Shown in pieces: positions 3,964 through 12,830 of a DNA stretch of 25,208 bases (positions are counted from its first letter, which is position 1; each line of letters opens with the position of its first letter). The position numbers were made by a program, and so were the translations under genes. Origin of the DNA: a virus; IMG/VR virus record IMGVR_UViG_3300030108_000403, positions 1 to 25,208 of that record; one strand, 5' to 3'. Under the pieces are notes generated by a model that worked only from the letters and a program-made list of their open reading frames with translations, was not told the origin of the DNA and searched no databases.

Positions 3964-4131
3964 TTATTCCTTATTTGTGAACAAATCCTCGGCCTGTTCT
4001 TTATTTTCGTACTCAGCTAACTTTTGACTAACCGTGACTAACTTTGCCTCTAGCTCTGCACTCTTAGTCATTGCAACATCACGCTGACGTACCAGCACCT
4101 TCATTAGATTTTCTGTAATATTAAGTTCCAT
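3964..4131 (-). CDS. 55-residue coiled-coil protein
   Basis: The start chosen is ATG 4131, with GAGG about 9 bases upstream. The open frame extends to 4197, but only by a run (VALCYWFLGSGPC) that overlaps the holin-like gene and has no ribosome site. From the ATG the product begins MELNITENLMKVL and is a single charged helix with heptad-like Leu spacing (SAELEAKLVTVSQKLAEYEN), ending in an acidic tail. It overlaps the end of the holin-like gene by 11 bases, so translation is probably coupled. Its position directly after a holin-like membrane protein could mean a lysis role, but there is no signal peptide or lipobox, so it is not an obvious spanin. The function is unknown. Confidence 0.75.
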   Translation of the reverse strand: MELNITENLMKVLVRQRDVAMTKSAELEAKLVTVSQKLAEYENKEQAEDLFTNKE

Positions 4132-4318
4132 TCTTTTTCCTCTTTCTTTCTCTAAGCATGGCCCAGAGCCTAAAAACCAATAACACAGAGCCACCAACTA
4201 ACATAAATAGTTGAAGGCCCTGCTCCACCCACTGTAACCAAATAGGCGTAGATACTAAACTAGTAGAAAGTGCAGTATCTGTTATATTTTTTATTTTTTC
4301 AGTCGTTTTTAGGTCCAT
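4121..4318 (-). CDS. Small membrane protein, putative holin
   Basis: This is a 65-residue protein starting at ATG 4318. An AGGG lies 9 bases upstream. A polar helix (residues 1-20) and the segment PIWLQW precede one clear membrane helix at about 33-53 (GLQLFMLVGGSVLLVFRLWAM), followed by a very basic tail (RERKRKK). One short membrane span with a strongly charged cytoplasmic tail, in a product under 70 residues, is the usual plan of small phage holins. Holins make lesions in the inner membrane that release or activate the endolysin. The only lysozyme domain in the window lies far upstream (15,320-16,645), so this is not a compact lysis cassette. A near-consensus promoter abuts the start codon. 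Confidence 0.7.
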   Translation of the reverse strand: MDLKTTEKIKNITDTALSTSLVSTPIWLQWVEQGLQLFMLVGGSVLLVFRLWAMLRERKRKKNGT

Positions 4319-4355: not shown

Positions 4356-4649
4356 TTATTTGTTTAGTTGTTGTTTTATAAAGTCTATTTCTGCTTTTAT
4401 ACGTTCTATTTCTCTAGTCCTGCGCTCTACTATATCAGGACTCATCATACCAACTAATACATTTACTCTGTTTGATAGTGTATCTACTGTAGCATCTAAT
4501 TTATTTACTCTGACATCTAAGTTACGAATGCGACCCTCTGCATCCTCTAGATGCTCCATCATATTCTTTATTTGATTTTTAGCTATCGCTGCAGCAGATA
4601 CAACGGATACAAGCATACCTCCTATGGTGACAAGTAAAGATACATCCAT
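4356..4649 (-). CDS. Membrane-anchored coiled-coil protein (possible lysis or envelope protein)
   Basis: This is a 97-residue protein starting at ATG 4649, 2 bases after the stop of the PP-loop gene. The N-terminal segment LLVTIGGMLVSVVSAAAIA (about residues 5-23) is a single membrane anchor or uncleaved signal. The rest (28-97) is a long coiled coil (MEHLEDAEGRIRNLDVRVNKL onward, ending EIDFIKQQLNK). An N-terminal anchor plus coiled coil resembles inner-membrane spanin subunits and some small holin-associated proteins. No outer-membrane partner lipoprotein is visible next to it. It sits directly upstream of the promoter and holin-like gene, so a lysis role is reasonable but not proven. Confidence 0.75.
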   Translation of the reverse strand: MDVSLLVTIGGMLVSVVSAAAIAKNQIKNMMEHLEDAEGRIRNLDVRVNKLDATVDTLSNRVNVLVGMMSPDIVERRTREIERIKAEIDFIKQQLNK

Positions 4650-4651
4650 AA

Positions 4652-5533
4652 TTACTCTACACGCTCACCATTTTCATCAAGAACAACTTCAGGCCCCCAT
4701 GTGTCATCTGCATAGCCTTCTTTCCAGAGAGGATAGCTCATGGGTTCATCCATAAGCTCTCCAAATTTTGTGTATGGGTGGCCTCTATATTCATAAGTTT
4801 TTGGATCAGCTTCATTTCTGTATTTTCCATATGAACCGTGTTTTGCAAATATGTCATCTAATTCTGCACCTGATAGGTCTGGTTGTGCATTACGCACTCC
4901 TATATATCCACAAATTATACAAGACCACTTCATATTTTCAGCAATATCACAATCACATTCTACATCTGATATAGCGTGTAACTCTGCAGGTATAGATTCA
5001 AGTTGTTCAAAACGACCCGACAGTGTGGCTGAAATAGCGTCCCAATCAATAGGATATTCTATAGGGTCTAGTGTTCGTGATCCGCCAAATATAACTTGCA
5101 TTCCGTCTCGTGAAAAATAGTTATGAAAAAGCGGTATCTGATCTATACAGGTGTTTTCCAATGACACGCCGGGAACAAAAATGTCTGGTGTATACTCATC
5201 TATTATATTTGAATAGCCTTGGTATCTAGCATGTAAAATTCCGTAGTCTAGAGTATTAGAAAATCCGGCTCGAATTGGACGTAAGTCTTCAAAAACAACA
5301 GGCCAATCAGATTTTATTTCAAAAGTAAAATCACGCACATTACTCTTTAACCAATCAACTTTAGCATTTGCTATTCGCGTTTCACGGCTTTGTCTCCAAG
5401 GATCACGGGGTTTGTTAACCCAACTTTCTTTTGCATATATTGCTATAATGTCGTGTGACGTTTCAGATAAAAATCTGTGCAAAGCGTATGTGCTATTTAC
5501 ACCGCCAGAAAAAGGTATAAGAACTTTACTCAT
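4652..5533 (-). CDS. PP-loop ATPase family enzyme, QueC-like (adenine nucleotide alpha-hydrolase fold)
   Basis: This is a 293-residue protein. ATG 5533 overlaps the preceding TAA (TAATG). It opens VLIPFSGGVNSTYALHRFL. SGGVNS at residues 9-14 is the PP-loop that binds ATP pyrophosphate in QueC, ThiI, NadE, GuaA and PAPS reductases, but the usual Asp of SGGxDS is Asn here. Residues 115-130 (PDIFVPGVSLENTCID) resemble the second conserved strand of the fold. Cys193, 195, 205 and 208 (CDC, then CIIC followed by GYIGVRN) form a compact cluster near where QueC has its zinc site. QueC makes 7-cyano-7-deazaguanine, which some phages put into DNA. At 293 residues it is longer than usual QueC (about 220-230), and no QueD, QueE, FolE or transglycosylase is in view. 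PP-loop enzyme is firm; substrate unknown. Confidence 0.8.
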   Translation of the reverse strand: MSKVLIPFSGGVNSTYALHRFLSETSHDIIAIYAKESWVNKPRDPWRQSRETRIANAKVDWLKSNVRDFTFEIKSDWPVVFEDLRPIRAGFSNTLDYGILHARYQGYSNIIDEYTPDIFVPGVSLENTCIDQIPLFHNYFSRDGMQVIFGGSRTLDPIEYPIDWDAISATLSGRFEQLESIPAELHAISDVECDCDIAENMKWSCIICGYIGVRNAQPDLSGAELDDIFAKHGSYGKYRNEADPKTYEYRGHPYTKFGELMDEPMSYPLWKEGYADDTWGPEVVLDENGERVE

Positions 5534-6330
5534 TAACTTGTTGCTCCGTTATATGTTCCTCCGCCACCTGTTGTAACGGTAAGTCCTCCCTTATTTACAG
5601 CTTTTCCTGCAGTTCCTCCGGGTCCTCCGGGTCCTCCTGCTCCTGTAGCCCAACTAGGATAGTTACCTGAAGGTGGTCCTGCACATATAGGATAAGGTCC
5701 ATATGTACCTGCTGAACCTGATGAGCCTGCTGATCCATTCTGTCCTACACCACCTGCTGATCCTGCTGAACCTGCACTACCATTACTACCTGTTACAGAT
5801 GGGTTACCACAACTTTCAAGATTACCATACTTGTTATAACTTGGAGTATAAGTTCTACCAGCAGCACCAGCACCACCGCCACCACCGCCGCCTCCGCCAC
5901 CACCAGATACTGTACCTTCATTGTTTACTACATAAGTACCAGTACCACTAGATATTTCAAATTTAATAGCATCACCGCCAGTTCCTCCAGTTCCGCCTGT
6001 TCCTCCGGGTCGTCCAGTAGAACCTGTAGAACCTGTAGCGCCAACTTGACCACGAACAGTTGCACCACTCGCAACATTAATAGTTAGTGGGCTAGCTGCA
6101 TTAAGTGCGCCTGTAGTAAGCGCCACTGCACCAGTACCACTAGAATTAAATACAGAAACACCGCTTGCTATATTTACAACTATTGGAGTAGTATCCGTGC
6201 TTGCGTTATAGCCTGCAGCCGTTGCCAGAGTAAGAACATTAACTGAGTTAACATTTGATGTAACATCCAAAACTATTTCTCTTGAGGCTGCGCTAGAGCC
6301 AAAGCCTAGAACCTGATATCCAAAACTCAT
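5533..6330 (-). CDS. Glycine-rich tail-tip protein, probable receptor-binding adhesin
   Basis: This is a 265-residue protein starting at ATG 6330, with GGAG about 8 bases upstream. Residues 1-95 are beta-rich and Ser/Thr/Val-rich. Residues 96-119 are collagen-like or polyglycine triplets (GATGSTGSTGRPGG, then repeated GGT). Residues 143-153 are eleven Gly in a row. Residues 180-207 are GSAGSAG-type repeats, and 231-239 is GGPGGPGG. Such alternating Gly-rich runs with short variable loops are the hallmark of polyglycine-II sandwich adhesins (the phage S16 gp38 type) and related Gly-rich fibre tips. It follows the long fibre gene directly, as a tip adhesin or fibre partner would. Two Cys (174, 216) lie in the loops. 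It is coupled by TAATG to the PP-loop gene. Confidence 0.8.
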   Translation of the reverse strand: MSFGYQVLGFGSSAASREIVLDVTSNVNSVNVLTLATAAGYNASTDTTPIVVNIASGVSVFNSSGTGAVALTTGALNAASPLTINVASGATVRGQVGATGSTGSTGRPGGTGGTGGTGGDAIKFEISSGTGTYVVNNEGTVSGGGGGGGGGGGAGAAGRTYTPSYNKYGNLESCGNPSVTGSNGSAGSAGSAGGVGQNGSAGSSGSAGTYGPYPICAGPPSGNYPSWATGAGGPGGPGGTAGKAVNKGGLTVTTGGGGTYNGATS

Positions 6331-6342
6331 ATCTTACTCCAG

Positions 6343-8565
6343 TTAAGCGTCGTTAGCTGCATCAGTTGTAAAGAATAGTTTTATACCAATTAACCGTGCG
6401 TCTTCTGCCATATCATCATTACTGTCAGAAACGTCTCTAAATATTCTAAAGAAACACATATCTCCAGCGGCAGGACTTCCTGCAACTGTTATTGCACCAC
6501 TCTCTGCAGTTACACAAAGATCCTCTGCAGCGCCTAGAGCATCGTCTGTTACAACCACCGCAGTGCCGTATGCAACATCAATAGTATCGTTATCAGAGAC
6601 TGCTACGCCCTGCAGACCCCAAGCAACACCATCTGTATCTGTTGCGGCAGTTGTCCAGAAAGCTTGGAAAGTAACCGTGCCTTCATTCCAACTTTTTGGA
6701 AATGCAATTTGAAACTGAGCATGTTCATCTGACGAGGCATCAAAGTCTAGAACATTCATGTCAGGACGGCCAGAGGTTGTCTCTGCTGTGGCTAGTGCTG
6801 CACATCCGTTTGATGCAGTTGGACTCATAGCCGCTGCAGGTACAAAGATAGTTTCTTTACCTGCCGTCTTAATTGCTGCACTTGAAACTGTAGGGGCTTG
6901 TGAAAAGTCAACTACACCTCCAGAGGAGATTGATATTGCATCTGTATCTGATGCAGAGCCAATAGTACCAGCATCAGGAATAGTTAAACTAGTTCCTGTA
7001 AGTGCTAGTGTTCCGGCGCTAGAGGGCAGAGTTACTGTAACATCCGCCGTAGATGCAGGGCCAATCAGAGTAACAGCATTTGTACCATTGTCACTGTCTT
7101 CAAAAAACTTTACAAAGCCAGCACTGGTTGCGCCGTTTTTAAGGTCAGCACCTGCGTTAATTACAGGAGTTGTAAGTGTTTTATTTGTTAGTGTGTCTGT
7201 TGATACCAAGGACACCAAAGTTGAACTAGAACCTGCAGGTAACAACATAGTGTTAGTAACACCAGCAGAGTGGGGCTGTGCTTGTAGTATCTGACCATGT
7301 GTATTGACCTCACAGTTTAACTGTATAGCACCAGAGTTGCTGTTGCCTAGCACTGTAAGATGCCCTGTGCCTTTTGCTTCTAACTCAAGGTCAATGTTTG
7401 AGTCGTCACCAGTTGCAGATAACTTAGGTGCGTTGCCTGTGGCTGCGTTTGTTACGTCAAACTGGTTGACTGCAGAAGAAGTGGTTTGGAAAATAATCTG
7501 TTCGTTGCCATTTTCATCTGCAATAAAATGTGCATCATCAATAAGAATGTTATGAGAATTAGTGTCTAAATTAGCGCCCAGTTGTGGCGAGGTATCTTCA
7601 ACAATATTGCTAAGGCCAGATGATGTGGCAAGACCTGCAGTTAAAGTGGACTTTGTAATTTTCTTTAGACCGCCTCCAGAAGTGTCAACAGCAAGAAGAA
7701 CATCATCATCCGCAACGCTGGATATTTCAGACAGAGAACCTACAGCAACAGAATTAAAGTTTGAGCCGTCTGCAATAAGTAGATTGCCTGAAGTGTTTGT
7801 TCCCATAGTGATATCATCACCAGTGACGGTTAGATCACCAGAGATGACAAGGTTGCCTGAAGAGTCTAGTGTAAGGGCGGTGCTAGTTCCTATAGCACTG
7901 GTGCCAATCTTGAACTTGTCACTGTCTCCATCATCTATACCCATCGTGAACGTCTGTGTTCCAGACAAGGCAAAAGCTAAGAAGGGATCGCCATCAGTTG
8001 CTGTGTTATTTATAATTAGCCCTGTAGTTCCTCCTGCACCGCCAAGAGTTAGGCTAGTGTCCGCTGCGTGAGTAAGAGTGATATCGTTATCGGAACCAAA
8101 GCCAAGAACTGCACTATCACTATCCAGCTTCAGATCATTGCTAACTGTAACTGCAGTAGAGGCGTTCATATCAATTGTTGCTTCACCATCAATACGCAGA
8201 ACACCATCAGAGCTTTGCTGAATAAAGCTAGCAGTATCTCCAAACTGTATCTTTTCTGTAGTAGTCAGCAAAATGTCATCAGAGAACTGAAAGTAATCCT
8301 CATCTTCCATCCACGTTAACACACCATCTGATGTATTTGCATTAAAGGTTATAGCTATATCTGTATCAGCACCCGTACCAAAAGTGATGGTGTTGCTCAA
8401 CAGTTTTTCAATAGCACCGCCTTCACCATCAGTGCCGTCATGCTGGTGGCCCCCTGTCTCAAAAGCAGCGTCAATCGCGTTAAACTCTGTAGTAAAGTCG
8501 GAAGCCTGAATGACTTCGCCATCTACAAAGTTAGTGGGGTCAGTTTTATTATATGCTGTACCCAT
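6343..8565 (-). CDS. Tail fibre protein
   Basis: This is a 740-residue protein whose ATG 8565 overlaps the nozzle stop (TAATG). Residues 1-55 contain GEVIQASDFTTEFNAIDAAF then GGHQHDGTDGEGGAI, a fibre N-terminus pattern common in marine phages. The long middle (about 60-570) is made of short beta repeats rich in G, T, S and D (ITFNANTSDG, LTVTGDDITMGTNTSGN, TLTNKTLTTPVINAG), as in trimeric beta-helical fibre shafts. The C-terminal 165 residues form a separate beta domain (ETIFVPAAAMSPTASNGC through FDASSDEHAQF to LIGIKLFFTTDAANDA). I recall that ending from many uncultured marine phage fibres. It should attach to the tail and, with the Gly-rich protein after it, contact the host. Confidence 0.9.
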   Translation of the reverse strand: MGTAYNKTDPTNFVDGEVIQASDFTTEFNAIDAAFETGGHQHDGTDGEGGAIEKLLSNTITFGTGADTDIAITFNANTSDGVLTWMEDEDYFQFSDDILLTTTEKIQFGDTASFIQQSSDGVLRIDGEATIDMNASTAVTVSNDLKLDSDSAVLGFGSDNDITLTHAADTSLTLGGAGGTTGLIINNTATDGDPFLAFALSGTQTFTMGIDDGDSDKFKIGTSAIGTSTALTLDSSGNLVISGDLTVTGDDITMGTNTSGNLLIADGSNFNSVAVGSLSEISSVADDDVLLAVDTSGGGLKKITKSTLTAGLATSSGLSNIVEDTSPQLGANLDTNSHNILIDDAHFIADENGNEQIIFQTTSSAVNQFDVTNAATGNAPKLSATGDDSNIDLELEAKGTGHLTVLGNSNSGAIQLNCEVNTHGQILQAQPHSAGVTNTMLLPAGSSSTLVSLVSTDTLTNKTLTTPVINAGADLKNGATSAGFVKFFEDSDNGTNAVTLIGPASTADVTVTLPSSAGTLALTGTSLTIPDAGTIGSASDTDAISISSGGVVDFSQAPTVSSAAIKTAGKETIFVPAAAMSPTASNGCAALATAETTSGRPDMNVLDFDASSDEHAQFQIAFPKSWNEGTVTFQAFWTTAATDTDGVAWGLQGVAVSDNDTIDVAYGTAVVVTDDALGAAEDLCVTAESGAITVAGSPAAGDMCFFRIFRDVSDSNDDMAEDARLIGIKLFFTTDAANDA

Positions 8566-11833: not shown

Positions 11834-12159
11834 GAATCTAGTCCTTTAATTTTTTTCTTTTGCGGAATAAAATCAAAATCTCCTCCAATAGCTGCTACAC
11901 ATTCTATCGAAGGATTTACATCTGCAACACCTGCTAAAGTAAAAGTTCTAGTTTTTGGATTTATATACATAGTAAAATTTACAAAAAACTCTCTATCTCT
12001 AAATTTAAGTGTAGCAACTTCTCCATGTTGTGCAGCTTGCTTTGCAAGAGTGCCGAGTGGAAAGCACATAGTGCCAAAGGTTTGAGCTTTAACAAAAGTC
12101 ATACCACAGAATAAAATACCAAAAATATACAGTGAAAATAAAACTAATCTCACTATCAT
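11830..12159 (-). CDS. Small exported protein with signal peptide
   Basis: The start chosen is ATG 12159, which shares its A with the upstream TAA (TAATG); a TTG-initiated extension to 12171 adds only four residues and is unlikely. The 109-residue product has a clear signal peptide (VRLVLFSLYIFGILFCG, cleavage likely after VKA at residue 25). The FC in the signal is not a proper lipobox. The mature part of about 84 residues has two Cys (32 and 87) that could form a disulfide in the periplasm, and the segment YINPKTRTFTLAG. A small exported phage protein with N-P-x-T-x-T-(F/W)-T and a late Cys is a pattern I recall from many marine phages, role unknown. It is coupled on both sides, to the oxygenase and to the beta-rich protein. 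Confidence 0.82.
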   Translation of the reverse strand: MIVRLVLFSLYIFGILFCGMTFVKAQTFGTMCFPLGTLAKQAAQHGEVATLKFRDREFFVNFTMYINPKTRTFTLAGVADVNPSIECVAAIGGDFDFIPQKKKIKGLDS

Positions 12160-12794
12160 TACATACCCCAAACTTTCTTTAAATACGTTTGAACTAATGT
12201 TGACTTTGTAAACATATCTTTCTGTGCTTTCATAAGGTAAGCATTTACCTCATACATATTTTGTAAAATGAAAGATTGTTCATATGACACATTAGAAGAC
12301 ATCCACCCTATTATGTTTTGTCTAAATCCCTTAGTGACCTTTTCTACACCATGTGGATATATTATAGGAAAGATCACAGCTTCACCTGCGTTTAACTTCT
12401 TACCTATTCTTCCTACTGGTGTGGCTAAAGTAAACTCTCCCCCTTCATAATCATCTGTCAGATTTATGCTCCAGCCATAGTCAAAAAATACGTTGTTTGA
12501 TTTTGGCTGCGCTTTAAAAGCGTCTACGTGTAAATCGTAGTAATCACCCTCAAGATACTTGTTATAAAAATTTACTGATACTCTGGTAGGACAATACACG
12601 CTGTCTATGTAGTGTGTATCGTACAGCTTATCTGTGATTAGCTTCCTTACCTCGTCTGGGACATTCTTTGACTCTTTATTACTTTTTATGTCCTCTAGAT
12701 CAGGAGCAGTATCTCCCCCATTCTTAAACGTGTTTGAATCAATCTTATCCAAACAAAAATTTACTTCGTCTTCAGTTAGTAGCTTGATAAACAT
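12159..12794 (-). CDS. 2-oxoglutarate/Fe(II)-dependent oxygenase (prolyl 4-hydroxylase/PKHD type)
   Basis: The start is ATG 12794, with GGAGGT directly upstream; the frame can be extended to a TTG at 12809 that overlaps the ribosome site, so that is rejected. The 211-residue product has the double-stranded beta-helix motif set: Y-D-L-H89-V-D91 (iron ligands), then GGEFTLATPVG, then PIIYPHGVEKVTKGFRQNIIGW with the third iron ligand His148 and Arg158 for 2-oxoglutarate. This matches PKHD-type hydroxylases (PiuC and viral P4H-like proteins), which hydroxylate proteins or other substrates using O2 and 2-oxoglutarate. Length is close to that of PiuC. It follows the hairpin that closes the capsid module and is coupled to the exported protein. 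The substrate is unknown. Confidence 0.9.
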   Translation of the reverse strand: MFIKLLTEDEVNFCLDKIDSNTFKNGGDTAPDLEDIKSNKESKNVPDEVRKLITDKLYDTHYIDSVYCPTRVSVNFYNKYLEGDYYDLHVDAFKAQPKSNNVFFDYGWSINLTDDYEGGEFTLATPVGRIGKKLNAGEAVIFPIIYPHGVEKVTKGFRQNIIGWMSSNVSYEQSFILQNMYEVNAYLMKAQKDMFTKSTLVQTYLKKVWGM

Positions 12795-12830
12795 ATGTAC
12801 CTCCGTCAATTCAATATCAAAGCAAGAAGG

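Follow-up and report, generated by a model that had tools for sequence, protein, structure and literature searches.

In this report, we describe a protein of a marine podovirus that is predicted to adopt the PP-loop (ATP-pyrophosphatase) fold and that belongs to an undescribed viral family of such proteins. Its gene directly follows that of a glycine-rich adhesin, and within the data examined the two are inseparable. The reading that we favor, tentatively and as something close to an even proposition, is that the protein is a dedicated, ATP-dependent adenylating enzyme of the upstream adhesin, which it most likely modifies. The basis for this view is the predicted fold, an intact and selected ATP loop, the fixed gene pair, the co-variation of its two members, and purifying selection. 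A more specific version is put forward with greater reserve: the receptor-binding protein may be chemically finished by its own Asn-type PP-loop enzyme, for example through amidation of the tip or conjugation of a small molecule, and such a system would constitute an undescribed class.

The gene and its genomic setting

The window, i.e. the whole 25.2-kb stretch of DNA that was analyzed, is a fragment of a marine podovirus of the HMO-2011 type, whose 509-residue tail protein has 46% identity with its counterpart in Puniceispirillum phage HMO-2011. A sister contig of 36.5 kb encodes endonuclease I and a PolA that contains a zinc insert of DnaJ type. A DnaJ-type CXXCXGXG zinc domain inserted into PolA (L005:8886-10424) is a feature of HMO-2011-type phages. 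Within the head-tail gene block of the window lies a 216-residue ORF with a TTG start (12159-12809, minus strand) whose matches are a phage “ferrochelatase” and the C-terminal portion of phrog_61 (2OG oxygenase); in HTVC033P, a gene at another place is annotated as a putative ferrochelatase.

Table 1. Features of the locus (window coordinates)
Feature	Position	Strand	Basis or remark
Focus gene: PP-loop (ATP-pyrophosphatase-fold) protein, 293 aa, ATG start	4652..5533	-	sequence, predicted model, fold matches
PP-loop SGGVNS, residues 9-14; Asn for Asp apparently fixed in the family	5492..5509	-	sequence, family alignments
Cys cluster C193-x-C195...C205-x2-C208, zinc-ribbon-like, kept in only part of the family	4910..4957	-	sequence, alignment
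Gly-rich adhesin, 26% Gly, obligate upstream partner, 1-nt overlap with focus gene	5533..6330	-	
GGAG, Shine-Dalgarno-like, within adhesin gene, 10 nt 5' of focus ATG	5544..5547	-	sequence
740-aa tail fiber gene, first of the fiber - adhesin - PP-loop cassette	6343..8565	-	
97-aa membrane/coiled-coil ORF, hydrophobic N-terminus	4356..4649	-	2 nt downstream of focus gene

The original prediction described the ORF, its translational coupling, the SGGVNS loop, the Cys cluster, and a membrane coiled-coil gene downstream, and all of these statements about the sequence are correct. The coupling is visible as a TAATG junction, in which the adhesin stop codon (TAA, 5535-5533) shares a base with the ATG of the focus gene (5533-5531), and as the GGAG that precedes this ATG. 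Relatives of the 97-residue ORF occur downstream in some related loci only, where they start a lysis-like block; this ORF thus falls outside the conserved pair. Farther downstream, a small transmembrane ORF (4121-4318) and a short coiled-coil ORF (3964-4197), both on the minus strand, are conserved in several related podovirus contigs in the manner of a lysis cassette.

The PP-loop gene is under purifying selection. The sister contig holds a copy with 97% identity, and dN/dS between the two copies is 0.15; of four other pairs of family members, three gave ratios of 0.05-0.12 and the remaining one, a close pair, gave 0.31. The sister copy, the many homologs, and the low dN/dS together show that the gene is more than a chance ORF.

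A fixed pair of adhesin and enzyme

Of about 150 copies of the PP-loop gene in a first data set, 90 directly followed the adhesin, and in 72 a member of the tail fiber family preceded the adhesin. An initial adhesin scan was swamped by glycine repeats, and the reverse scan was performed with the N-terminal domain of the adhesin as query. It yielded 64 adhesin loci; the PP-loop gene came next in 56, and the other eight stop at a contig edge. Thus, the pairing holds in all 56 adhesins with enough downstream sequence (31 non-redundant pairs). The one-base overlap is found in 26 of 36 non-redundant pairs. Across these 36 pairs the two proteins co-vary (Mantel r = 0.44, P = 2e-4), and in a subset of 22 that includes the fiber, the adhesin-enzyme correlation is 0.52 versus 0.20 for fiber and enzyme; part of this co-variation may reflect shared phage ancestry. 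The original prediction had called the enzyme a lone one, a misleading description of what is half of a fixed two-gene unit.

The genes downstream of the pair vary. Further, the isolates HMO-2011 and HTVC033P have other fiber sets at this locus, and none of their genes in the stretch compared is annotated as a PP-loop gene. Given the fixed pairing, the variable downstream genes, and the different fibers of related isolates, the fiber, adhesin, and enzyme genes look like an exchangeable host-recognition cassette.

Most non-truncated adhesins contain about 20-28% Gly, with GGGGGG and GGAGGAAG motifs. They have two variable loops with one conserved Cys each and invariant Gly columns around these loops; Lys167 is almost invariant, a stretch at the C-terminus is conserved, and the N-termini are diverse (MSFGY, MLMPS, MALQS, MTMFS). 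No relatives of this family are recorded among isolates. Glycine-rich motifs that frame variable loops are also characteristic of PGII-type tips, for instance those of gp38 and Pam3 gp24 (PMC12892980, PMC9608196), and from this shared plan we infer that the adhesin is probably structurally akin to them. One adhesin ORF, at a contig end (L197:4950-5603), has over 40 glycines in a row, possibly an artifact of assembly or sequencing.

An altered PP-loop in an undescribed viral family

AlphaFold2 with a 64-sequence alignment gave a confident model (pLDDT 90.4, pTM 0.88); prediction from the single sequence was uninformative (pLDDT 32). The model shows a strand (residues 3-7), a loop, and a helix (12-24), as the PP-loop/HUP fold requires. 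NcsA, TtuA, LarE, argininosuccinate synthase, and YcfA are among the Foldseek matches listed, the first three being the best in the PDB. The VIA-align Z-scores are 10.9 for QueC (3bl5), 10.8 for Cap9-CdnD (9nto), 10.7 for ThiI, and 10.4 for LarE; differences below 1 count as ties, and these four thus tie as nearest. Among viral models, the best is that of one uncharacterized marine-virus protein (TM 0.81), followed by two unnamed ones and then by much weaker phage QueC annotations. The PP-loop fold, which the original prediction had proposed, is therefore established as far as prediction allows, and the subfamily is not fixed by these comparisons.

Taken alone, the window protein has no credible match in Pfam, PHROG, NCBIfam, PADLOC, or the PDB sequences, and searches with three different family members found no relative among 50,697 isolate-phage records. 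Relatives were first found via synteny and then by alignment-based scans of IMG/VR. Two such scans returned 199 and 150 loci, many of them on redundant contigs, and 80 of each were used. The one match among the genome contigs (L004) was rejected as a chance one, since it lies inside an alpha-2-macroglobulin-like protein (identified by eye). The resulting 64 members are 22-60% identical to the window protein. Outside the ATP loop, the alignment conserves R67, F69, D117, G122, E126, N127, G173, R174, Q177, D226, and G236, as would be expected of a catalytic pocket. An uncharacterized protein from an uncultured marine virus, A0A0F7L8F1 (BFVD; TM 0.81, 34% identity), is likely a member of the family, and the uncharacterized A0A1B1ITW1 (BFVD) is among the closest entries to it.

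PP-loop ATP-pyrophosphatases carry Asp in the motif SGGxDS; here the position is Asn, as the original prediction noted, and the substitution is shared across the family. Two of the family scans used the PP-loop itself as the search pattern, and the count of Asn from them is consequently biased. The adhesin-based scan was blind to the PP-loop gene, and in it all 56 loci (31 non-redundant) read [ST][GS]G[VI]NS. The loop is kept in all 31 non-redundant pairs, once as an SSG variant, and Asn is present in every one. Asp is found only in an SSSSDS paralog group in T4-like contigs. We take Asn to be a family signature, not a lesion. Decay of the gene was considered and rejected, for the loop is intact and dN/dS is well below 1. 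A fixed Asn, an otherwise intact loop, and dN/dS values mostly of 0.05-0.15 argue instead for a working, altered site.

Family members also occur away from this adhesin. T4-like marine contigs carry two or three members in tandem or nearby, between virion structural genes, and these members do not adjoin the Gly-rich adhesin described here (paralog sets at L128:4812-10807, L110:4104-10810, and L120:3233-9051). Their neighbors are an asparagine-synthase-like (AsnB-like) amidotransferase (Pfam 2e-10), an Asp/Asn beta-hydroxylase (1.2e-7), and glycosyltransferase-like ORFs, which were judged by eye and have no Pfam match. Further PP-loop proteins stand beside the paralogs, one with SGGIDS...GGGGDELF at L128:11283-12242 and an AsnB-like amidotransferase at L147:4576-5892, so that several PP-loop genes share one cluster in these phages. 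A paralog with the degenerate SSSSDS loop follows a glycosyltransferase-like ORF with a 38-nt overlap and is possibly a degenerate partner subunit.

Relationship to QueC

The original prediction had termed the enzyme QueC-like. This holds insofar as QueC is among the nearest folds, but the protein does not appear to be a canonical QueC. The PF06508 (QueC) model found no match in the window, nor across 15 viral records even at E 1, while controls were detected. The signatures of QueC include YxQxHxxE, VPxRN, YPDC, and a C(x)8CxxCxxC zinc site (PMC13329287). The first three are absent from a 48-member alignment, in which GxSLENT takes the place of VPxRN; of the QueC signatures, the family has just the P-loop, and this with Asn instead of Asp. 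A weak match to the PHROG “QueC-like” profile (phrog_1550) is seen in 19 of the 48 members, with a best E of 1e-4.

The Cys cluster is present as had been described (193/195/205/208), but it is no defining feature of the family, and its spacing is unlike that of the QueC zinc site. At least four Cys occur in this region in 31 of 64 members and zero to three in the others; no column is invariant, the best being 80% and 78% Cys. Judging from the alignment, the cluster is dispensable and has been lost in several lineages.

No other deazaguanine gene had been noted nearby, and this observation extends to the additional ~18 kb of the sister contig and to 19 more viral records. PTPS/QueD, TGT, FolE, and a second QueC were not found in as many as 21 viral records, while control genomes were detected. 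Five of the records approach or exceed 50 kb; the records may be fragments, and a host could supply precursors. The suggestion that the enzyme modifies DNA is thus unsupported, no TGT/DpdA-type partner having been found.

Function of the pair

How might such an enzyme serve an adhesin? It would bind ATP through SGG[VI]NS and turn a carboxylate, whether on a small molecule or on the adhesin itself, into an acyl-adenylate. The activated group would then be transferred to the adhesin, or the adhesin amidated, late in infection, and the outcome would be a finished receptor-binding protein. The strict pairing suggests that the role concerns the adhesin, whether as target or as beneficiary, and not DNA or a free small molecule; of the options raised in the original prediction, recruitment for a new role is the one that survives. 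Two precedents make this mechanism reasonable: Cap9 attaches a deazaguanine N-terminally to the product of the neighboring gene (PMC11996544), and QatC is proposed to modify QatB likewise (PMC13279940). The adhesin pair has neither the N-terminal Gly motif nor the deazaguanine recognition, and the chemistry and the site would therefore have to differ from those of Cap9 and QatC. The lack in the adhesin N-termini of the Gly2 found in Cap9/QatB substrates speaks against modification, as does the presence of T4-like members away from this adhesin, and with Asn in place of the PP-loop Asp, catalysis could be weaker.

Fiber-assembly chaperones, too, are typically encoded in strict pairing downstream of their partner, and Tfa-type proteins fold or trimerize other fibers. 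The protein could accordingly be an assembly chaperone that retains the PP-loop fold and ATP binding, performs little or no chemistry, and folds or trimerizes the Gly-rich adhesin, a notion that we regard as rather unlikely but still a serious competitor. The position directly downstream of the adhesin is that of known fiber-chaperone pairs, and in Pam3 the glycine-rich fiber gp24 is paired with the chaperone gene gp25 (PMC9608196). The substitution of Asn for Asp could signify ATP binding without turnover. A chaperone would account for the obligate pairing and the co-variation equally well, but not for the enzyme-like conservation of a pocket-like residue set outside the ATP loop, nor for paralogs in enzyme clusters apart from the Gly-rich adhesin; this T4-like neighborhood favors an enzyme over a pure chaperone. 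Further, the PP-loop fold seems unrelated to those of the described fiber chaperones, Mu Tfa and Pam3 gp25, the latter a beta-sandwich with a helical trimerizer (PMC9608196). Neither fold appears among the structure matches listed, an absence that does not amount to exclusion.

The fixed pairing would also be explained if the enzyme altered the host surface glycan bound by the adhesin, so that progeny would not re-bind debris and sister phages would be excluded. SGG[VI]NSxY resembles the SGGxDSxY of the N-sugar amidotransferase cluster of PF06508, which includes WbpG (PMC13329287), and glycosyltransferase-like genes adjoin the T4-like paralogs. We nonetheless consider this role improbable, given the late operon position after a structural adhesin, podovirus members with no adjoining sugar-pathway partner, and no similarity to the NCBIfam amidotransferase models.

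The main idea of the original prediction, an enzyme of deazaguanine or other nucleobase chemistry with DNA, RNA, or a free small molecule as its substrate, could draw on the proximity of the QueC fold and the weak PHROG matches; with the QueC motifs absent, the pathway genes not found in up to 21 viral records, and no need for such an enzyme to follow an adhesin, it now seems very unlikely. Least probable of all is a sulfur-transfer (thiolation) enzyme like LarE, NcsA/TtuA, MnmA, or ThiI, which the best Foldseek matches, one member's match to Pfam ThiI (2.7e-4), and what we take to be a resemblance of the family's SLENT to the SLGQ region of ThiI would suggest, but for which no Cys is conserved throughout (the Cys region of some members lacks them altogether), making sulfur transfer via the protein's own cysteine unlikely.

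Significance and comparison with known systems

Adhesins set the host range of phages, and engineered versions serve diagnostics and therapy. Were a large group of marine phage adhesins to depend for activity on an encoded ATP-dependent enzyme, their heterologous expression would fail without that enzyme. Host recognition would then have a chemical layer that has so far gone unnoticed, and protein modification by QueC-like enzymes (Cap9 and, as proposed, QatC) would extend from bacterial immunity to phage virions. In the literature, we recognized no work that links PP-loop proteins to tail fibers.

The known systems each share some features with this pair. QueC (PF06508) has the PP-loop fold, is the top, if tied, structural match (3bl5, Z 10.9), and has a C-terminal Cys cluster, as do most members; the present family differs in having SGGxNS rather than SGGxDS, in the missing QueC motifs, and in the absence of pathway genes. 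The thiolases LarE, NcsA, TtuA, ThiI, and MnmA are alike in fold, with near-equal Z-scores and the best Foldseek matches, whereas the family has no conserved catalytic Cys or Fe-S triad. The WbpG-type N-sugar amidotransferases (PF06508 cluster 5) share the SGGx[D/N]SxY loop signature; they differ in their Cys motif and its order and in their glycan operon, and their models do not recognize the family. Cap9 of type IV CBASS and QatC of qatABCD are likewise QueC-like PP-loop enzymes in a fixed operon with a protein partner, proposed in the latter case. The partner here is instead a virion adhesin without the N-terminal MGxS motif, and the family has no CDG-recognition motif, defense genes, or PADLOC match. 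The adhesin, for its part, follows the plan of the gp38-type PGII adhesins (S16, PP01) and Pam3 gp24, with glycine-rich motifs framing variable tip loops, but it is always followed by a PP-loop gene rather than by a Tfa-type chaperone.
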